A stretch of DNA of 56,519 nt from an uncultured Bacilli bacterium. Its GTDB lineage: Bacteria > Bacillota_I > Bacilli_A > RF39 > UBA660. Position 1 is the first letter of the stretch; each line of letters starts with the position of its first letter. This document shows, in pieces, positions 19,253-37,280 of this stretch. The stretch lies in the NCBI GenBank assembly GCA_947589735.1, contig CANQCR010000010.1, forward strand, positions 1-56,519, written 5' to 3'. Both the position numbers and the translations under genes were made by a program. The notes under the pieces are model-generated. The model made no database searches and was not told the DNA's origin. It worked only from the letters and a program-made list of their open reading frames with translations.

Positions 19253-19302
19253 CACTTCTAACCCCTCCTTATTTTAGGGTACACTACTAACAATATTATA
19301 GC

Positions 19303-19332
19303 AAAAAAAAACTATTAAATAAATAGTTTTTT
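19303..19332 (-). terminator. Terminator between family members B and A
   Basis: The stem AAAAAACTATT/AATAGTTTTTT (about 19306-19332) is followed by a T-run on the minus strand. A TATAAT -10 box (19295-19300) follows immediately, with only a weak -35, so member A and the secretion genes may have their own start or depend on read-through. Confidence 0.75.
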
Positions 19333-19341
19333 GTCTTTTTA

Positions 19342-19746
19342 TTACATACCTGTTGTTCCTCTAGCTACTAAACTACAGCCATTAGCTCCAACTTCACCAT
19401 TAACAAAGCAGTTAAAGCAGCTCATAACAGTATCATCATCACCTGATACAAATCCAATAAGCACTTTTACAATTGTAATTACAAAGAAGACTATCAAAGC
19501 AGCAATAACACGTTTTACAAGTGTTTGTTGACCTTTCTTTATTTCATCCTCTTTTTGTGCCATAACAGCTTTAGCTAAATCTAGCGAACCAAATATAACT
19601 AATAATACTGGTACAGCAATCCAAATAACTTTTACTATCAATGAAACGACATTAGGAATCATTCCACCAAATTCAATTCCAGCACTACCGCATTGATAAG
19701 ATGCTTTAGTATTAATAGCATCCAAAACATTAATCAAATTTAACAT
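19342..19746 (-). CDS. Two-helix core membrane protein (family member B), minimal form
   Basis: This 134-residue protein is almost only the shared core: CGSAGIEFG, a first helix with AVPVLLVIFGSLDLAKAV, the turn AQKEDEIKKGQ, KRVIAALIVFF in the second helix, and CFNCF with a final Cys. It has no clear cleavable signal peptide and no large ectodomain, so it shows the minimal unit of the family. In size and helix layout it resembles VirB2/TrbC pilins. It is the only member with a perfect consensus promoter directly upstream and a terminator directly downstream, so it is expressed as a single-gene unit, as expected for an abundant subunit. Confidence 0.85.
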   Translation of the reverse strand: MLNLINVLDAINTKASYQCGSAGIEFGGMIPNVVSLIVKVIWIAVPVLLVIFGSLDLAKAVMAQKEDEIKKGQQTLVKRVIAALIVFFVITIVKVLIGFVSGDDDTVMSCFNCFVNGEVGANGCSLVARGTTGM

Positions 19747-19772
19747 ATTACACGCATCCCTCTCTCAAACCG

Positions 19773-19807
19773 ATTATACTATAATTGACAAAGATTGTCA
19801 ATTATAG
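19773..19807 (-). promoter_or_regulatory. Perfect consensus promoter embedded in a 13-bp palindrome
   Basis: On the minus strand there is a -35 TTGACA (19796-19801), a 17-base spacer and a -10 TATAAT (19773-19778). All 12 core bases match the sigma-A consensus with ideal spacing. A 13-bp perfect inverted repeat with a 3-base loop (arms CTATAATTGACAA and TTGTCAATTATAG, 19779-19807) covers the spacer and the -35 and abuts the -10. It begins right after the stop of the upstream gene. There is no T-run after it, so it is more likely an operator than a terminator. Confidence 0.88.
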
Positions 19808-19808
19808 T

Positions 19809-21080: not shown

Positions 21081-21491
21081 TTAGCCGCAAGATCCTGCTG
21101 AAGCTCCTTCGATGAAGCAGTTAACACAATCGAATATTGTACTATTAGAATCACCTGCAACAGAACTAATAATAAACTTAACTATTGCAATAACAAAGAA
21201 TACTAAAACGGCCGCAATAACTCTCTTGATAAACACCTGTTGTCCCTTTTTGATTTCATCTTCTTTTTGTGACATCATACCCCTAGCTAAATCTAGCATA
21301 CCAAAAATAACTAAAAGTATAGGTACAGCTATTTGAATTATTCTTATAATGATATGAACTAGGTTAACAATTGATTCATCAATTACCGCGTCACCTAATG
21401 CTGTACAAGTTATATCCGCAGCATGTACATTAGTACTAAACGTAAATAAGCAAACTAATAGCAATAAAGCAAAACCTATCTTTTTTTTCAT
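21081..21491 (-). CDS. Two-helix core membrane protein (family member C)
   Basis: This 136-residue protein has a cleavable signal peptide (about 1-24, ending VHA-AD), then directly the family core: TCTALGDAV, a first helix with AVPILLVIFGMLDLARGM, the turn SQKEDEIKKGQ, FIKRVIAAVLVFFV, and DCVNCF with Cys at the C-terminal end. It is close to member B in the core but exported by a signal peptide. After signal cleavage it would be about 112 residues, in the size range of VirB2-like pilins. GGAGG precedes the start by about 10 bases. Confidence 0.85.
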   Translation of the reverse strand: MKKKIGFALLLLVCLFTFSTNVHAADITCTALGDAVIDESIVNLVHIIIRIIQIAVPILLVIFGMLDLARGMMSQKEDEIKKGQQVFIKRVIAAVLVFFVIAIVKFIISSVAGDSNSTIFDCVNCFIEGASAGSCG

Positions 21492-21509
21492 ATATATTTC
21501 TACCTCCTA

Positions 21510-22205
21510 CTAACATTTATATCCATCAGGTTCTGATATAAAGCAATTGACACATGACATAATATTTCCTGTATCAGAGCTTAATAAACTAATAACGAAC
21601 TTGACTACTGCAACTACAAGGAAAACCATCACACCAGCAATAAGTCTTTTAATAAATATCTGTTGACCTTTTTTGATTTCATCTTCTTTTTGTGATGCCA
21701 TACCTCTAGCCAAATCTACCATACCATAAATAACTAATAAAATTGGCACTAAAAGTTGCATAATTACTATAACATAATGAACGATTCTTGCCAACTGACG
21801 ATCAAATTGGACGTCAGTTCCAAAAGCTACACAATAAAAGTTATCTGAACTATCTTGAGTGACGCCAGGTGATGTATTAGTTCCATTATATGTTGTAATT
21901 GCATAATTACCATTACTATCTTCTTTTATAGTAGAACCAGAAATAGATACATAACTAGGGCATCTTTCAAGTTGAACATCAAATTGCCCGGTTACATCAG
22001 TCTGAGTAATAGAATCATCACTACCAGTTGGCCTACTAGTTTCTTTAACTACTTGTCGAGCATTCATCTCATCATCAAACTCAATAATGTAAGTGATGTT
22101 TTGAGAGCCTGGATTTCTAAGTGAATAACTACAGGTTTTATCAGCGTATACAGAAGCATTAAATAGTAAGAATGTTATTATAAAAAATAATATTTTTTTT
22201 GTCAT
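21510..22205 (-). CDS. Two-helix core membrane protein (family member D)
   Basis: This 231-residue protein has a signal peptide (about 1-21, ending VYA-DK) and an N-terminal ectodomain of about 110 residues that begins with CSYSLRNPGSQNITY and predicts beta strands. The family core follows: FYCVAFGTDV, helix one LVPILLVIYGMVDLARGM, SQKEDEIKKGQ, FIKRLIAGVMVFLV, then SCVNCF. The ectodomain opening (TCSYS, then a strand pair and DVTGQFDVQL with a following Cys-Pro) is echoed in member E (TCRYS, DITGSYDVMF, Cys-Pro-Pro). D and E therefore share an ectodomain fold as well as the core. It begins 18 bases after the stop of C's neighbour with GGAGG upstream. Confidence 0.85.
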   Translation of the reverse strand: MTKKILFFIITFLLFNASVYADKTCSYSLRNPGSQNITYIIEFDDEMNARQVVKETSRPTGSDDSITQTDVTGQFDVQLERCPSYVSISGSTIKEDSNGNYAITTYNGTNTSPGVTQDSSDNFYCVAFGTDVQFDRQLARIVHYVIVIMQLLVPILLVIYGMVDLARGMASQKEDEIKKGQQIFIKRLIAGVMVFLVVAVVKFVISLLSSDTGNIMSCVNCFISEPDGYKC

Positions 22206-22216
22206 AATACCTCCAA

Positions 22217-23029
22217 TTACTCATCAGTAACAGCCTGTCCAGTACCGATTTTAGGGTCCTCAGTACTTGATGAACTTTGACTACATTTGTTATTCACAAA
22301 GCAATCAACACAAGCCACAATTCGCATAGAATTACCCCTGCCACCAACTAAATTAATTAACATTTTAACAAGTAATACTACTAAAAACGTAATTGTACCC
22401 ATTATCAGTCTTTTTACCAAGGAAGATCTACCCTTACGCATTTCGTCTTCTTTTTGAGATATTATTCCTTTTATTAAATCTATCATACCAAAAAGAATCA
22501 TAATAACTGGTACTATAACCATCGCAATATTATACAAAGAATTAGAAATTCTTGGAATAATAGCCGGAATATGTTTTATTAATGCCAAGCTACCAGATCC
22601 ACCACAACTAACATAGCTTTTTTCTAAAAAATCAGCTCTATTAGAATCATTAAAAACTTCACTATGTGGATTATATGATGTATCTAATGTATAAGAACCA
22701 TCACTATCTTCAGAACCTTCGACCATTTGAGGTCTAGAATATTGACTTCCCGATCCCTTAATTTCCATAAAAGGAGGACAATTTGCACTAAACATGACAT
22801 CATAACTGCCCGTTATGTCTGTAGGGTTTTCTGGATCGTCGCTATTTACTAGCAAAATTGATGTAGGAAGACCACTATCATCAAAAATAATATCATAGGA
22901 GTACGTTTTATTCTCATTAGTATCGAAAATTTTAGAATATCTACAAGTTGAAGATGCAGAAACACTTTGCGTAAATAAGAAGAAAAAGAAGAAAAAAGGT
23001 GCAACCAATAAAATATTTTTCTTTTTCAT
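22217..23029 (-). CDS. Two-helix core membrane protein (family member E)
   Basis: This 270-residue protein has a signal peptide (about 1-25, ending VSA-SS), an ectodomain of about 115 residues related to that of member D (TCRYSKIFD, DITGSYDVMFSANCPP), then the core. The core contains SCGGSGSLALI, helix one with VPVIMILFGMIDLIKGI, the turn SQKEDEMRKGR, LVKRLIMGTITFLV, and ACVDCF. A Ser-rich tail follows. The turn carries M-R in place of I-K, and CVDCF in place of CVNCF. It lies between members D and F with only short gaps, so it is co-transcribed. Confidence 0.85.
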   Translation of the reverse strand: MKKKNILLVAPFFFFFFLFTQSVSASSTCRYSKIFDTNENKTYSYDIIFDDSGLPTSILLVNSDDPENPTDITGSYDVMFSANCPPFMEIKGSGSQYSRPQMVEGSEDSDGSYTLDTSYNPHSEVFNDSNRADFLEKSYVSCGGSGSLALIKHIPAIIPRISNSLYNIAMVIVPVIMILFGMIDLIKGIISQKEDEMRKGRSSLVKRLIMGTITFLVVLLVKMLINLVGGRGNSMRIVACVDCFVNNKCSQSSSSTEDPKIGTGQAVTDE

Positions 23030-23033
23030 ATCA

Positions 23034-24515
23034 TCACTCCATTTGACAATAACTACTTCCAGTTCCTTGTAAAAAACAATTAATACATGGAATAATTTGC
23101 GTGTCAGCCATACTACTTACTATACTTATAACAAGCTTAACAATCGCAAAAACAAAGAATACCATTACTGCACCAATTAATCTTTTAAAGAATGTACTTT
23201 GCCCTTTTTTGATTTCATCCTCTTTTTGAGAGGTGATAGCTTTAACCAAGTCCAATATTCCCAGTATTATAACAACTAGTGGTACTAAAAATTGCAAAAA
23301 ATTATATATAGTGTGAACTAATCTAATAAATGTGGATGGTAATCCGGTAATAAAGTCACCACCGCAACTATATGTAGCTAGATCATTTTCCAAGCTTCCT
23401 ACATTAGCCTCAATTTCTGGATTGTTCTCATTTTCGCTACTACCACTATTATTTCCAGTAATAAATATTTGTTGACATCCGGCTGTATAGGTTTTATAGT
23501 TAGAATAAGTTGAGGCAATCGCTTTAGTAATTTTATCATAATTTGATGCGTCCGATAGATAAAGTCTTGCTTCACCAGTTTTCATTCCAACAATTGATTG
23601 ATACCATTCAGTATTTGGATCAACAGCTAGAATCATATAGTCAGGGCATCTGTTTGGTGTGGAACTATTAGTAAAATAATCCATATATGTAAATGTTGTA
23701 TGATTTTTAAATTCATCCGGTAATTTGCTCCAATTTAAAATGCTTTCTGATTCACTATTACCACCGGTAAGATTAGTATTAAGATTAATCGTTGGCGAAT
23801 TTAAATCACCTTTTACATTGACAACTCCCTCAAGGTATGTACCATTATCAAAAGTTGCTTTACATTGGCAAGATATAGCATGAAGAGTTGGCTGAGCTCC
23901 GTTAGCATTAGAGTCATTCGAATCATTTGAATCACTTGATTCAATTTCAGATAGTCCAGCTGGACCAATCGTTTCAGATTTAAAAGGATATACAGCAGGA
24001 TTAAAGGTACGGAAAACCTTATCGTCTTCAGCGGCTTGTACAATTGCTCTATTAACATTTGTATTAAGTTTATTCGTAATTGCTACTGTTTCATTATCAT
24101 TCAAATCAAAAGTATAAAAATTAGTACCATCATCTTTGAAGAAGAAAAGGGCTGCACCAGTTTCATATCCAGCATATAAAACGGCCGGAGGGCAAGTTTG
24201 GCCAGACGATTTAAAAACCTCACCTGCATAGAAATTTCCAGCTTCGCTTGTAGTATAATTTTTAGAAACATGATTTTTATCCCAATTCCCATAAGTATGT
24301 TTATCGCCTTTTATGGTCTTTGGTAAATTAACAGACTCTACTTTTATTTGTTGAAAATCTTTCATAATGGAAACTGATATTTCTTTATTAGGAGAAGAGT
24401 AACCATAAGTACATGTTTTATATATATTACTATCACTTGCTGCATTTACCTTATTTATCCCTAAAAACACGACAAAAACTATTAAAATAATAGTTTTTGT
24501 TAATTTCTTACTCAT
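23034..24515 (-). CDS. Two-helix core membrane protein (family member F), long ectodomain
   Basis: This 493-residue protein is the largest member. A signal peptide (about 1-25, ending VNA-AS) is followed by an ectodomain of nearly 360 residues containing several Cys residues and a short Asn/Asp/Ser repeat (SDSNDSNDSN). The family core closes the protein: YSCGGDFITG, helix one LVPLVVIILGILDLVKAI, SQKEDEIKKGQ, FFKRLIGAVMVFFVFAIVK, and PCINCF with a Cys near the end. The ectodomain start CTYGYS recalls members A (CTYG), D (CSYS) and E (CRYS). It follows tadZ with an 18-base gap and is the first of the tandem series. Confidence 0.85.
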   Translation of the reverse strand: MSKKLTKTIILIVFVVFLGINKVNAASDSNIYKTCTYGYSSPNKEISVSIMKDFQQIKVESVNLPKTIKGDKHTYGNWDKNHVSKNYTTSEAGNFYAGEVFKSSGQTCPPAVLYAGYETGAALFFFKDDGTNFYTFDLNDNETVAITNKLNTNVNRAIVQAAEDDKVFRTFNPAVYPFKSETIGPAGLSEIESSDSNDSNDSNANGAQPTLHAISCQCKATFDNGTYLEGVVNVKGDLNSPTINLNTNLTGGNSESESILNWSKLPDEFKNHTTFTYMDYFTNSSTPNRCPDYMILAVDPNTEWYQSIVGMKTGEARLYLSDASNYDKITKAIASTYSNYKTYTAGCQQIFITGNNSGSSENENNPEIEANVGSLENDLATYSCGGDFITGLPSTFIRLVHTIYNFLQFLVPLVVIILGILDLVKAITSQKEDEIKKGQSTFFKRLIGAVMVFFVFAIVKLVISIVSSMADTQIIPCINCFLQGTGSSYCQME

Positions 24516-26909: not shown

Positions 26910-26941
26910 TATCTCACCACCTTATCTTATCTCATAGCATA

Positions 26942-26970
26942 ATTATACTACAAAAACGATACATTGGCAA
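26942..26970 (-). promoter_or_regulatory. Proximal promoter of the pilin/secretion array
   Basis: On the minus strand there is a -35 TTGCCA (26965-26970), a 17-base spacer and a -10 TATAAT (26942-26947), about 33 bases before the Flp-like start. Confidence 0.8.
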
Positions 26971-27076
26971 TAACACAAAATAATATTTTAAAAATTTGCT
27001 TAATTTATAGCCAAAATAACGTTTTTTCGTAACATTTTTATTATTGACAATCCTCATCAATCTATTATCAATTTAG

Positions 27077-27105
27077 ATTATATCATTAGTTATATCGAAA
27101 TTCAA
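27077..27105 (-). promoter_or_regulatory. Distal promoter of the pilin/secretion array
   Basis: On the minus strand there is a -35 TTGAAT (27100-27105), a 17-base spacer and a -10 TATAAT (27077-27082), just after the tadC terminator. It would give a leader of about 160 bases before the Flp-like gene. The rest of 26910-27141 holds no gene. Confidence 0.7.
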
Positions 27106-27106
27106 C

Positions 27107-27130
27107 AAAAAAAGGTCAATGACCTTTTTA
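27107..27130 (-). terminator. Terminator of the Tad motor operon
   Basis: The stem AAAAAGGTC/GACCTTTTT (27109-27129) with a three-base loop and a T-run on the minus strand lies just after the tadC stop. Confidence 0.8.
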
Positions 27131-27141
27131 AATGTGTAAAG

Positions 27142-35582: not shown

Positions 35583-35616
35583 AAAAAAAAGATTTTAAAC
35601 ATTAAAGTTTAAAATC
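35583..35616 (-). terminator. Original terminator U-tract and hairpin, now left of the insertion sequence
   Basis: The stem GATTTTAAAC/GTTTAAAATC (35591-35616) is followed on the minus strand by a run of eight T residues (35583-35590). This is the intact intrinsic terminator that once followed the gene at 37264-37947. The IS insertion left a complete hairpin here and a second hairpin without T-run at 37253-37278. The gap 35482-35582 between this and the giant gene holds no gene; a TATAGT box near its 3' side is a weak promoter candidate. Confidence 0.85.
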
Positions 35617-35618
35617 AT
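35589..35618. repeat. Left flanking direct repeat of the insertion sequence (30 bp)
   Basis: Identical over 30 bases to 37251-37280 and directly abutting the left inverted repeat of the element. It contains the whole terminator hairpin. Confidence 0.9.
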
Positions 35619-37250
35619 CAGACTGTTGACAAAGTCAATGGTCTTTTCTTGAAAAAAAGTATATAATGGATGTGCGAGATAAAACTTTATTCTAACCAAA
35701 TAAAAGTTACTTACTATCTCGCTTTTATTATGGAGAAATGATATAATTATATTGGTTAGAATAAAGAAAGTAAGTGATAAAATGATAAGTATAAATAAAA
35801 ATATTCAAAGTGAAATCTTAATGACTACAATGGAAGAACTAGTCCCAGAGGATAGTTTGTTTCGAAAGATAGACAAGTATATAGATTTCACTTTTATTTA
35901 TGATGAAGTAAAAGATTTATATTGTGAAGATAACGGACGCCCAAGTATCGATCCAGTGGTGTTGTTTAAGTTGGTGTTTATACAAGCAATAGAAGGAATA
36001 AAATCAATGAGACAAACCTGCAAGAAAATAAAAGTAGATGCAGAATATAGGTGGTTTTTAGGAATACCATTTGGAAAAGAAACGCCACATTTCTCAACAT
36101 TTAGTAAAAATTATGAAAGAAGATTTAAAGGGACAGAAATATTTGAAAATATCTTTATAAACATAGTAAAACAGGCTCATAGATATGGAATGTTGAATGA
36201 TGAATTTTTTATGGATTCGACACATAGAAAAGCAAACGCAAATAAGAATAAATATGAAGATGTGGTAGTAAAAGAAATAAAAAAGCGAAGAGTTGATTTA
36301 GAAGAAGAAATCAATGAAGAAAGAAAAAGAATAGGAAAGAAAGAATTTGAATATAAAGATGAAGAGGAAGAAAAGCATATAAAGGTAAGTAAAACGGATA
36401 AGGAAAGTGGATACTATCATAGGGATAATAAAGAAAAAGGATTTATGTATTTAGAACATAGAACAGTAAATGGGAAATGCAATATTATAACAGATTCATA
36501 TGTAACAAAAGGAAATATACATGATTCAACAGTATGTACAGAAAGATTAGAATATCAAAAACAGAAATTAAAATTAGGAATAAATAAAGTTGGATTGGAT
36601 TCAGGATATGATAACTATGATATAAAAAAATATTTTGAAGATAATAAAATATATGGAGTAATTCAATATAGAAGTTATGGGCAAGGGAAAACAGAAATAA
36701 GGAAATGGGAGTTTAAGTATTTAAAAGAAGAAGATATATATGTATGTCCAAGAACAGGAATTGTCTTACCATATAGGAATATAGATAAAAATGGTTACAA
36801 ACAATATTATGATAGAAAACAATGTGAAGGATGCCCATATCAAAAGGAATGTTGTGGGAAAAACAAATTTAGAAGTCTGCGAAGATTTATAAATGAAGAA
36901 ATCAATGAAAGAGCAAGAGAAAGAAGATTAAGCGACGAGGGAAAAGAACTATTTAAAAAACGAAAAACGACAGTAGAAAGAAGTTTTGGAGATTCAAAAC
37001 AAAATCATGGATATAGATTTACGTTATATAAGGGTGTAAAAAAGAATCAAGCTTATACACACTTGATTTGTGCTGCCCAAAATATGAAAAATATAGCGAT
37101 AAAACAAGAAAAAGTAGATAGAATACCACTACCTTCTTCTAATTTATTAGGCAAAATTATCAAAAATGTTAAAAAAATTATCAAAATTCAATTTTTAAAA
37201 TTCGCATAAGAAAACCTCTAGAAAAATTCTAGGGGTTTGTCTACACTCTG
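35619..37250 (+). mobile_element. IS1182-family insertion sequence, 1632 bp
   Basis: The ends are imperfect inverted repeats: the left CAGACTGTTGACAAAG and the right end read inward CAGAGTGTAGACAAAC agree at 13 of 16 positions. Inside is one intact transposase gene. The left end has a hairpin before the gene (GCGAGATA at 35674-35681, TATCTCGC at 35715-35722, then TTTTATT) that would stop incoming transcripts. A TATAAT box at 35742-35747 follows it. The right end has a hairpin with arms AAACC-CTAGAA and TTCTAG-GGTTT (about 37213-37238). Flanking 30-bp direct repeats show insertion into a terminator. The element looks complete and potentially active. Confidence 0.92.
35782..37209 (+). CDS. IS1182-family DDE transposase
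   Basis: Catalyses cut-and-paste movement of the surrounding element. The 475-residue protein has the N-terminal family domain (RPSIDPVVLFKLV, then HFSTFSKNYERRF) and the catalytic core: first Asp145 in MDSTHRKANANK, second Asp273 in GLDSGYDNYD, and Glu399 in TVERSFGDSKQ, with the typical GYRFT and CAAQNMKN ending. A zinc-binding-like segment (CPRTGIV, then CEGCPYQKECC) lies at about 321-358. A TTG ten codons upstream extends the frame, but the ATG at 35782 is preferred. The gene is undamaged. Confidence 0.95.
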   Translation: MISINKNIQSEILMTTMEELVPEDSLFRKIDKYIDFTFIYDEVKDLYCEDNGRPSIDPVVLFKLVFIQAIEGIKSMRQTCKKIKVDAEYRWFLGIPFGKETPHFSTFSKNYERRFKGTEIFENIFINIVKQAHRYGMLNDEFFMDSTHRKANANKNKYEDVVVKEIKKRRVDLEEEINEERKRIGKKEFEYKDEEEEKHIKVSKTDKESGYYHRDNKEKGFMYLEHRTVNGKCNIITDSYVTKGNIHDSTVCTERLEYQKQKLKLGINKVGLDSGYDNYDIKKYFEDNKIYGVIQYRSYGQGKTEIRKWEFKYLKEEDIYVCPRTGIVLPYRNIDKNGYKQYYDRKQCEGCPYQKECCGKNKFRSLRRFINEEINERARERRLSDEGKELFKKRKTTVERSFGDSKQNHGYRFTLYKGVKKNQAYTHLICAAQNMKNIAIKQEKVDRIPLPSSNLLGKIIKNVKKIIKIQFLKFA

Positions 37251-37280
37251 AAGATTTTAAACATTAAAGTTTAAAATCAT
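37251..37280. repeat. Right flanking direct repeat of the insertion sequence (30 bp)
   Basis: Identical to 35589-35618. It overlaps the last six codons of the upstream minus-strand gene, and the hairpin here has lost its T-run because the IS follows. Confidence 0.9.

Follow-up and report, generated by a model that had tools for sequence, protein, structure and literature searches.

The window, a 56,519-nucleotide stretch of DNA from an uncultured Bacilli bacterium, carries a long minus-strand gene array (6261-31093) in a monoderm lineage. Its Tad-type genes include a TadA/VirB11-like ATPase, an RcpC/CpaB-like gene and a small Flp-like pilin. Alongside these, it carries six VirB2-like pilin candidates, a CHAP protein and genes of the VirB4-, VirB6- and VirD4-like kinds. 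The other Tad names in the array, CpaE included, are ones that we take from gene size and order. A Pfam scan of the window covered 40 of the 64 listed open reading frames (ORFs; at least 80 aa), and no relaxase was found among these 40. Further pilin-like homologues occur in the same genome (G000; contig 7, 36665-38668, and contig 11, 1130-1465), which suggests a second array. The window also holds an insertion sequence (35591-37278), in which a DDE transposase ORF (35752-37209) lies between identical 26-nt palindromic ends at 35591-35616 and 37253-37278.

Within the array, a promoter and an inverted repeat lie in front of a gene for a two-helix membrane protein of 134 aa (Table 1). This protein is the shortest member of its family, as stated in the original prediction, by two residues (134 versus 136 aa). 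It is predicted to form a helical hairpin, in which helices 29-63 and 66-100 are joined by a short charged turn. The motif of this turn is invariant in 41 orthologues. The structure prediction has a mean pLDDT of 73, with values mostly between 79 and 91 in the helices.

Family searches gave weak matches. The Pfam family T4SS_pilin (PF18895) matches 15 of the 41 orthologues at E≤0.01 (best 5e-05), and at this threshold the protein of the window is itself not matched. Six matches to PF18895 were found in this genome at E≤0.1, none of them over the curated cut-off and none at the 134-aa gene. A fold search of the PDB gave no significant match, with a best E of 0.7 and Z scores of at most 7.0, to unrelated helix pairs, and no solved VirB2-type pilin was among the fold matches listed; a sequence search of solved chains returned only E≥0.22. 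Given the VirB4-, VirB6- and VirD4-like neighbours of the gene and the Tad-type genes, "VirB2-like pilin" is a reasonable label for how the 134-aa protein may work, while its membership of the family is putative.

Table 1. Features at and around the pilin gene (positions in the window).
Feature	Position	Strand	Basis or remark
134-aa two-helix membrane protein, VirB2-like pilin candidate	19342-19746	-	ORF, predicted helices, homologues
-35 hexamer TTGACA	19796-19801	-	sequence and scan
-10 hexamer TATAAT	19773-19778	-	TATAG in front within the genus (TATAGTATAAT)
Inverted repeat	19778-19808	.	14-bp arms 19778-19791 / 19795-19808, 3-nt loop 19792-19794
Intrinsic terminator of the pilin gene	19303-19332	-	11-bp stem, 5-nt loop, T-tract
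Extended -10 promoter TGCTATAAT	19295-19303	-	fused to end of T-tract, before 392-aa gene
Next gene, 392 aa	18077-19255	-	C-terminal pilin-like two-helix module
Upstream gene, 412 aa	19809-21047	-	no family found; stop codon abuts palindrome
Four further pilin-like ORFs (136, 231, 270 and 493 aa)	21081-24515	-	
Promoter TTGCCA-17-TATAAT of small Flp-like pilin gene (26909-26658)	26942-26970	-	

Promoter and terminator of the pilin gene

In the gap that separates the stop codon of the 412-aa ORF from the start codon of the 134-aa ORF, the minus strand reads TTGACA-17-TATAAT (19801-19773), exactly as the original prediction described it. Scored against the sigma-70/sigma-A consensus, the two hexamers match fully (12/12), and a 17-nt spacer separates them. 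The site is the only 12/12 match that the promoter scan found between 12000 and 28000. Across the whole 1.44-Mb genome, perfect promoters with a spacing of 16-18 nt number 31, compared with 2 for a control in which the pattern is read backwards.

To follow the promoter among relatives, we collected loci with homologues of the 134-aa protein. A search of 57 related genomes gave a match in 34, and a species-level genome collection yielded 72 loci. Adding the locus of the window itself and a further one that came from the 57-genome search brought the total for comparison to 74. The nearest named relatives of the genome are uncultured Bacilli. Judging by their titles, three genomes contribute two loci each; since the loci are related, they do not count as independent. 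Each locus was given the score of the best promoter site within 110 nt before the start codon. A score of at least 11/12 was reached in 54 of the 74 loci, at least 10 in 61 and the full 12 in 21. Among the controls, the threshold of 11/12 was reached at 11 of 90 starts of paralogues in these loci, at 10 of 328 other same-strand ORFs and in 9 of 1480 first-order Markov resamples. The spacer measures 17 nt in 50 of the 54 high-scoring loci and 18 nt in the other 4, and the distance from the end of the -10 to the start codon is 15-33 nt, mostly 23-27. The 20 loci that score below 11 (13 of them below 10) include clear failures, with scores of 7-8, as well as near misses; in some, the matched gene is a paralogue or its start is misplaced. 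An earlier scan with a wider search region gave slightly different scores at some loci.

TTGACA or TTGACT with 17-nt spacing is present at 61 homologous loci. While the sequence of the spacer has diverged, these loci retain the hexamers, the distance between them and the base in front of the -10, which is G in 47 of 61. By BLASTP, 30 loci have a gene of the 412-aa type upstream of the pilin homologue, and 23 have a CpaE-like gene there. By hand count, a promoter of at least 11/12 is found in all 30 loci of the former kind and in 14 of the 23 of the latter. As the promoter is kept under differing upstream genes, it goes with the pilin gene rather than with the neighbour. Within the genus, TTGACA...TATAGTATAAT occurs in 10 of 12 genomes, at 0-2 copies each, and in 9 of these 10 the TATAGTATAAT-type promoter is the copy at the pilin gene. 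The tenth (G002) has its TTGACA...TATAGTATAAT match elsewhere and AAATAGTATAAT at the pilin gene; the two genomes of the genus that have no such match contain weak homologues only. At the level of sequence, the hexamers and spacing of the promoter are thus conserved among orthologues.

The pilin gene is followed by its own terminator, a stem-loop with a T-tract, and in this respect too the original prediction was right. In a permissive scan, a terminator-like hairpin with a T-tract follows the gene in 65 of the 74 homologous loci; the terminator of the window goes unlisted in a stricter scan with a minimum of 3 G-C pairs. The 493-aa pilin-like ORF also contains, near the 5' end of its coding sequence (24472-24500), a perfect 13-bp inverted repeat that is like the stem of the pilin terminator.

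The T-tract of the terminator is fused to the extended -10 promoter that precedes the 392-aa gene (TTTTTTTTTGCTATAAT; terminator and promoter together at 19295-19332). Among relatives, a T-tract that runs into TGNTATAAT was found in 43 of 71 loci, compared with 1 of 1420 resamples; these 71 are the loci with enough sequence, L090, L097 and L100 having been dropped at contig ends. As a whole element, TGCTATAAT is unique in the genome. The form TTTTTTNTGNTATAAT has 14 genome copies, most of which come after a predicted hairpin. The fusion therefore looks like a general feature of this genome rather than one peculiar to pilins, and we discarded the idea that it is unique to the pilin gene.

The Flp-like pilin gene of the array has a promoter of its own (Table 1). 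It lies in a 230-nt gap before the gene (26910-27141). This gap holds two or more promoter-like sites, of which the proximal one is conserved, as well as a hairpin resembling a terminator. We fetched ten related loci and found the gene in 9 relatives; in 9 of these 9, a promoter of at least 10/12 stands at the same place. With this second conserved promoter, both pilin types in the array have private promoters. The two promoters of the window (19773 and 26942) also have TAGTATAAT in common. The pattern TTGNNAN{13,15}TAGTATAAT occurs 6 times in the genome, against 3 for the control, and two of the six are in this locus. In the same nine relatives the Flp-like promoter is kept without TAGTATAAT, and most have TG before the -10. 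This means that the shared motif is not a conserved co-regulation signal, and this candidate was rejected.

The palindrome across the promoter

The inverted repeat extends over the -35 and the spacer, and the stop codon of the upstream 412-aa ORF lies directly beside it. The original prediction had described perfect 13-bp arms in this position; the arms are in fact one base longer, and the repeat can equally be read as 13-bp arms around a 5-nt loop. At loop lengths of 0-8, it is the longest perfect inverted repeat in the window.

When the window was put through 300 dinucleotide shuffles, arms of at least 14 bp appeared in one of them. Scaled to the whole genome, the shuffles lead one to expect ~0.9 repeats with arms of at least 13 bp and 0.08 with arms of at least 14 bp. 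With the hexamers fixed and the rest drawn at random at local composition, arms of at least 14 bp arose in 3 of 60000 draws and arms of at least 13 bp in 9 of 60000. Together with the genome-wide count of 31 perfect promoters against 2, these odds show that promoter and palindrome are each unusual on their own terms, and they render a chance origin of the palindrome unlikely but not impossible. In that scenario, the spacer and flank, which are very A+T-rich, would have come to hold 14 matched pairs by ordinary substitutions, and the promoter would work just as in our preferred explanation below. It is in keeping with chance that arms of at least 13 bp are expected about once per genome of such composition, and that the repeat came to our attention as the best among many features. 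Against it, 14-bp arms at a fixed promoter have a probability of ~5e-5, and even when multiplied by 31 perfect promoters this is still ~0.002.

The comparison with relatives sets the palindrome apart from the promoter. A recognisable promoter is present at 66 loci; the arms measure 14 bp in this species and 3-8 bp in the other 65, and the palindrome is missing in the nearest orthologues by protein (75-79% identity). A wider scan detected 10-bp arms at another place in one locus that has no good promoter (L125). A search for the arms in viral contigs matched 2 contigs (L160 and L161). In the whole genome there is no second copy of the palindrome within 3 mismatches; the backwards-read control pattern in this search also gave one palindromic place.

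These results bear on the idea, put forward in the original prediction, that the palindrome places the pilin gene under tight repression or switch control, for which further copies of the arms near related operons had been seen as potential support. A dimeric repressor bound to TTGACAA-N3-TTGTCAA would cover the -35 and keep the pilin promoter off until a signal arrives, an arrangement that would have been gained in this species only. Repressor sites classically have perfect symmetry over the -35 and the spacer. The 14-bp symmetry found here matches this layout, and arms of this length at a promoter are rare by chance, as the random draws show. However, the symmetry is kept at 0 of the 65 other loci, the lack of a second genome copy within 3 mismatches led us to reject an operator shared with other genes, and the 40 window ORFs scanned with Pfam include no regulator-type domain. 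Without conservation at orthologous promoters, a conserved operator is not supported, and we regard an operator of this species alone as quite improbable.

We have similar doubts about a function in RNA, in which a hairpin would end or protect the 3' end of the message of the 412-aa gene and insulate the pilin promoter. The stem begins right after the stop codon of that gene and has a predicted folding energy of -18.4 kcal/mol (z -3.6). However, it is followed by ATAATCGG and not by a T-tract, and it is unlisted by the terminator scan. Relatives, in which the stop codon often also adjoins the -35, lack the hairpin. In line with this, the strong fold is peculiar to this locus: when the promoter region was folded at all 66 loci, the window gave the lowest energy, -17.6 kcal/mol, followed by -10.1, with a median of -4.0. 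That the repeat might act only as a terminator of the upstream gene, which the original prediction had named as an outcome that would speak against it, is thus a weak proposition, and an RNA role of either kind appears quite doubtful. The palindrome itself is real, but it is confined to this species and probably serves no conserved function.

Template switching during replication in one lineage is the most likely origin of the palindrome. When the window is aligned with the orthologue in G006 (80% protein identity), 13 of 45 bases differ. A single inverted copy of 24 nt reduces these differences over 45 nt from 13 to 5. This one event would explain the new arm on the upstream side, most of the arm on the downstream side and the inversion of the loop. 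The score of this event is weak: an improvement of 8 was obtained against six different references, and pairs that do not include this species reached 7. All six references give the same improvement, since any palindrome that includes a conserved -35 scores well, its opposite arm being explained by the conserved TTGACAAA; we set the score aside as proof, as it discriminates too little. Since the closest known orthologue belongs to a different species, the mutational path is visible only indirectly. Such an inverted copy of promoter sequence would have been tolerated because the -35, the spacing and the -10 stayed intact or were restored.

The texts available for two studies describe how template switching can both equalise the arms of an imperfect palindrome and invert its loop (PMC8604942; PMC8794818). 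The palindrome of the window resembles quasipalindrome correction of this kind in its perfect arms and in its loop, which is inverted relative to the closest relative. It differs in that the change is seen here only against another species, the intermediate being missing.

A probable separate transcript for one pilin-like subunit

Taken together, we think it likely that a strong, probably constitutive promoter of the housekeeping sigma factor gives the 134-aa pilin a separately terminated transcript, and that the palindrome is a species-specific addition, likely made by template switching. Judged by its sequence, the promoter is real, conserved and strong-looking, and it serves one pilin-like subunit. 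It would provide one short VirB2-like pilin with a transcript of its own inside a long Tad/type IV secretion-like array, starting near 19766 and ending at the terminator. With a promoter and terminator to itself, the gene could yield more of its product than the neighbouring genes do of theirs. We infer the strength of the promoter from its match to the consensus only, and the strongest promoter is not always the one with a perfect consensus; constitutive use and an abundant product are likewise what the arrangement suggests. The original prediction of a strongly expressed subunit, separate from the rest of the array, is therefore well supported by the conserved promoter and the terminator, and the repression or switch control that it attached to this subunit is not.

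A more elaborate model, which we consider very improbable, treats promoter, gene and terminator as an insulated pilin cassette kept across uncultured Bacilli, in which the consensus promoter would load polymerase, the intrinsic terminator would free the short pilin message, the freed polymerase would be re-used on the next gene at a fixed ratio because the T-tract leads straight into the extended -10 promoter, and the perfect palindrome of this species would add a DNA cruciform or operator that switches the whole cassette. The available text of one study reports that E. coli polymerase can, after termination in vitro, diffuse and restart at a nearby promoter (PMC6978380).

The promoter is ordinary in kind and informative by its place. 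These uncultured gut Bacilli have an uncharacterised Tad/T4SS-like machine, and the conservation of the promoter singles out its likely main structural subunit among the pilin-like paralogues. The comparison with relatives also parts the conserved promoter from a regulatory-looking palindrome that is private to one species, which is a useful warning.

Comparison with known systems

Like full-consensus promoters of the sigma-A/sigma-70 class, the pilin promoter has TTGACA, a 17-nt spacer and TATAAT, with the start codon 26 nt past the -10. It differs from this class in two respects. Within the genus, the -10 is preceded by TATAG and not by the TGn of extended -10 promoters, and in this species only a perfect inverted repeat wraps the promoter.

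The type IV pili of Gram-positive bacteria are the subject of a survey, seen here in part (PMC3244431). In the open-licence literature on RF39, uncultured Bacilli, the Tad pilus and type IV secretion, we found no description of this locus. According to the accessible part of a review, subunits of the VirB2 kind are absent from Gram-positive type IV secretion systems, with Patescibacteria as the sole exception (PMC12857230). The VirB2-like arrays of Saccharibacteria, as presented in the same review, are among the closest known systems. Unlike those arrays, the one described here belongs to uncultured Bacilli and is mixed with Tad-type genes, and the pilin-like proteins of this genome all fall below the curated cut-off of Pfam T4SS_pilin. 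In both, a small monoderm genome has several divergent two-helix pilin-like genes, six there and six here by our count, and these adjoin VirB4-, VirB6- and VirD4-like genes.
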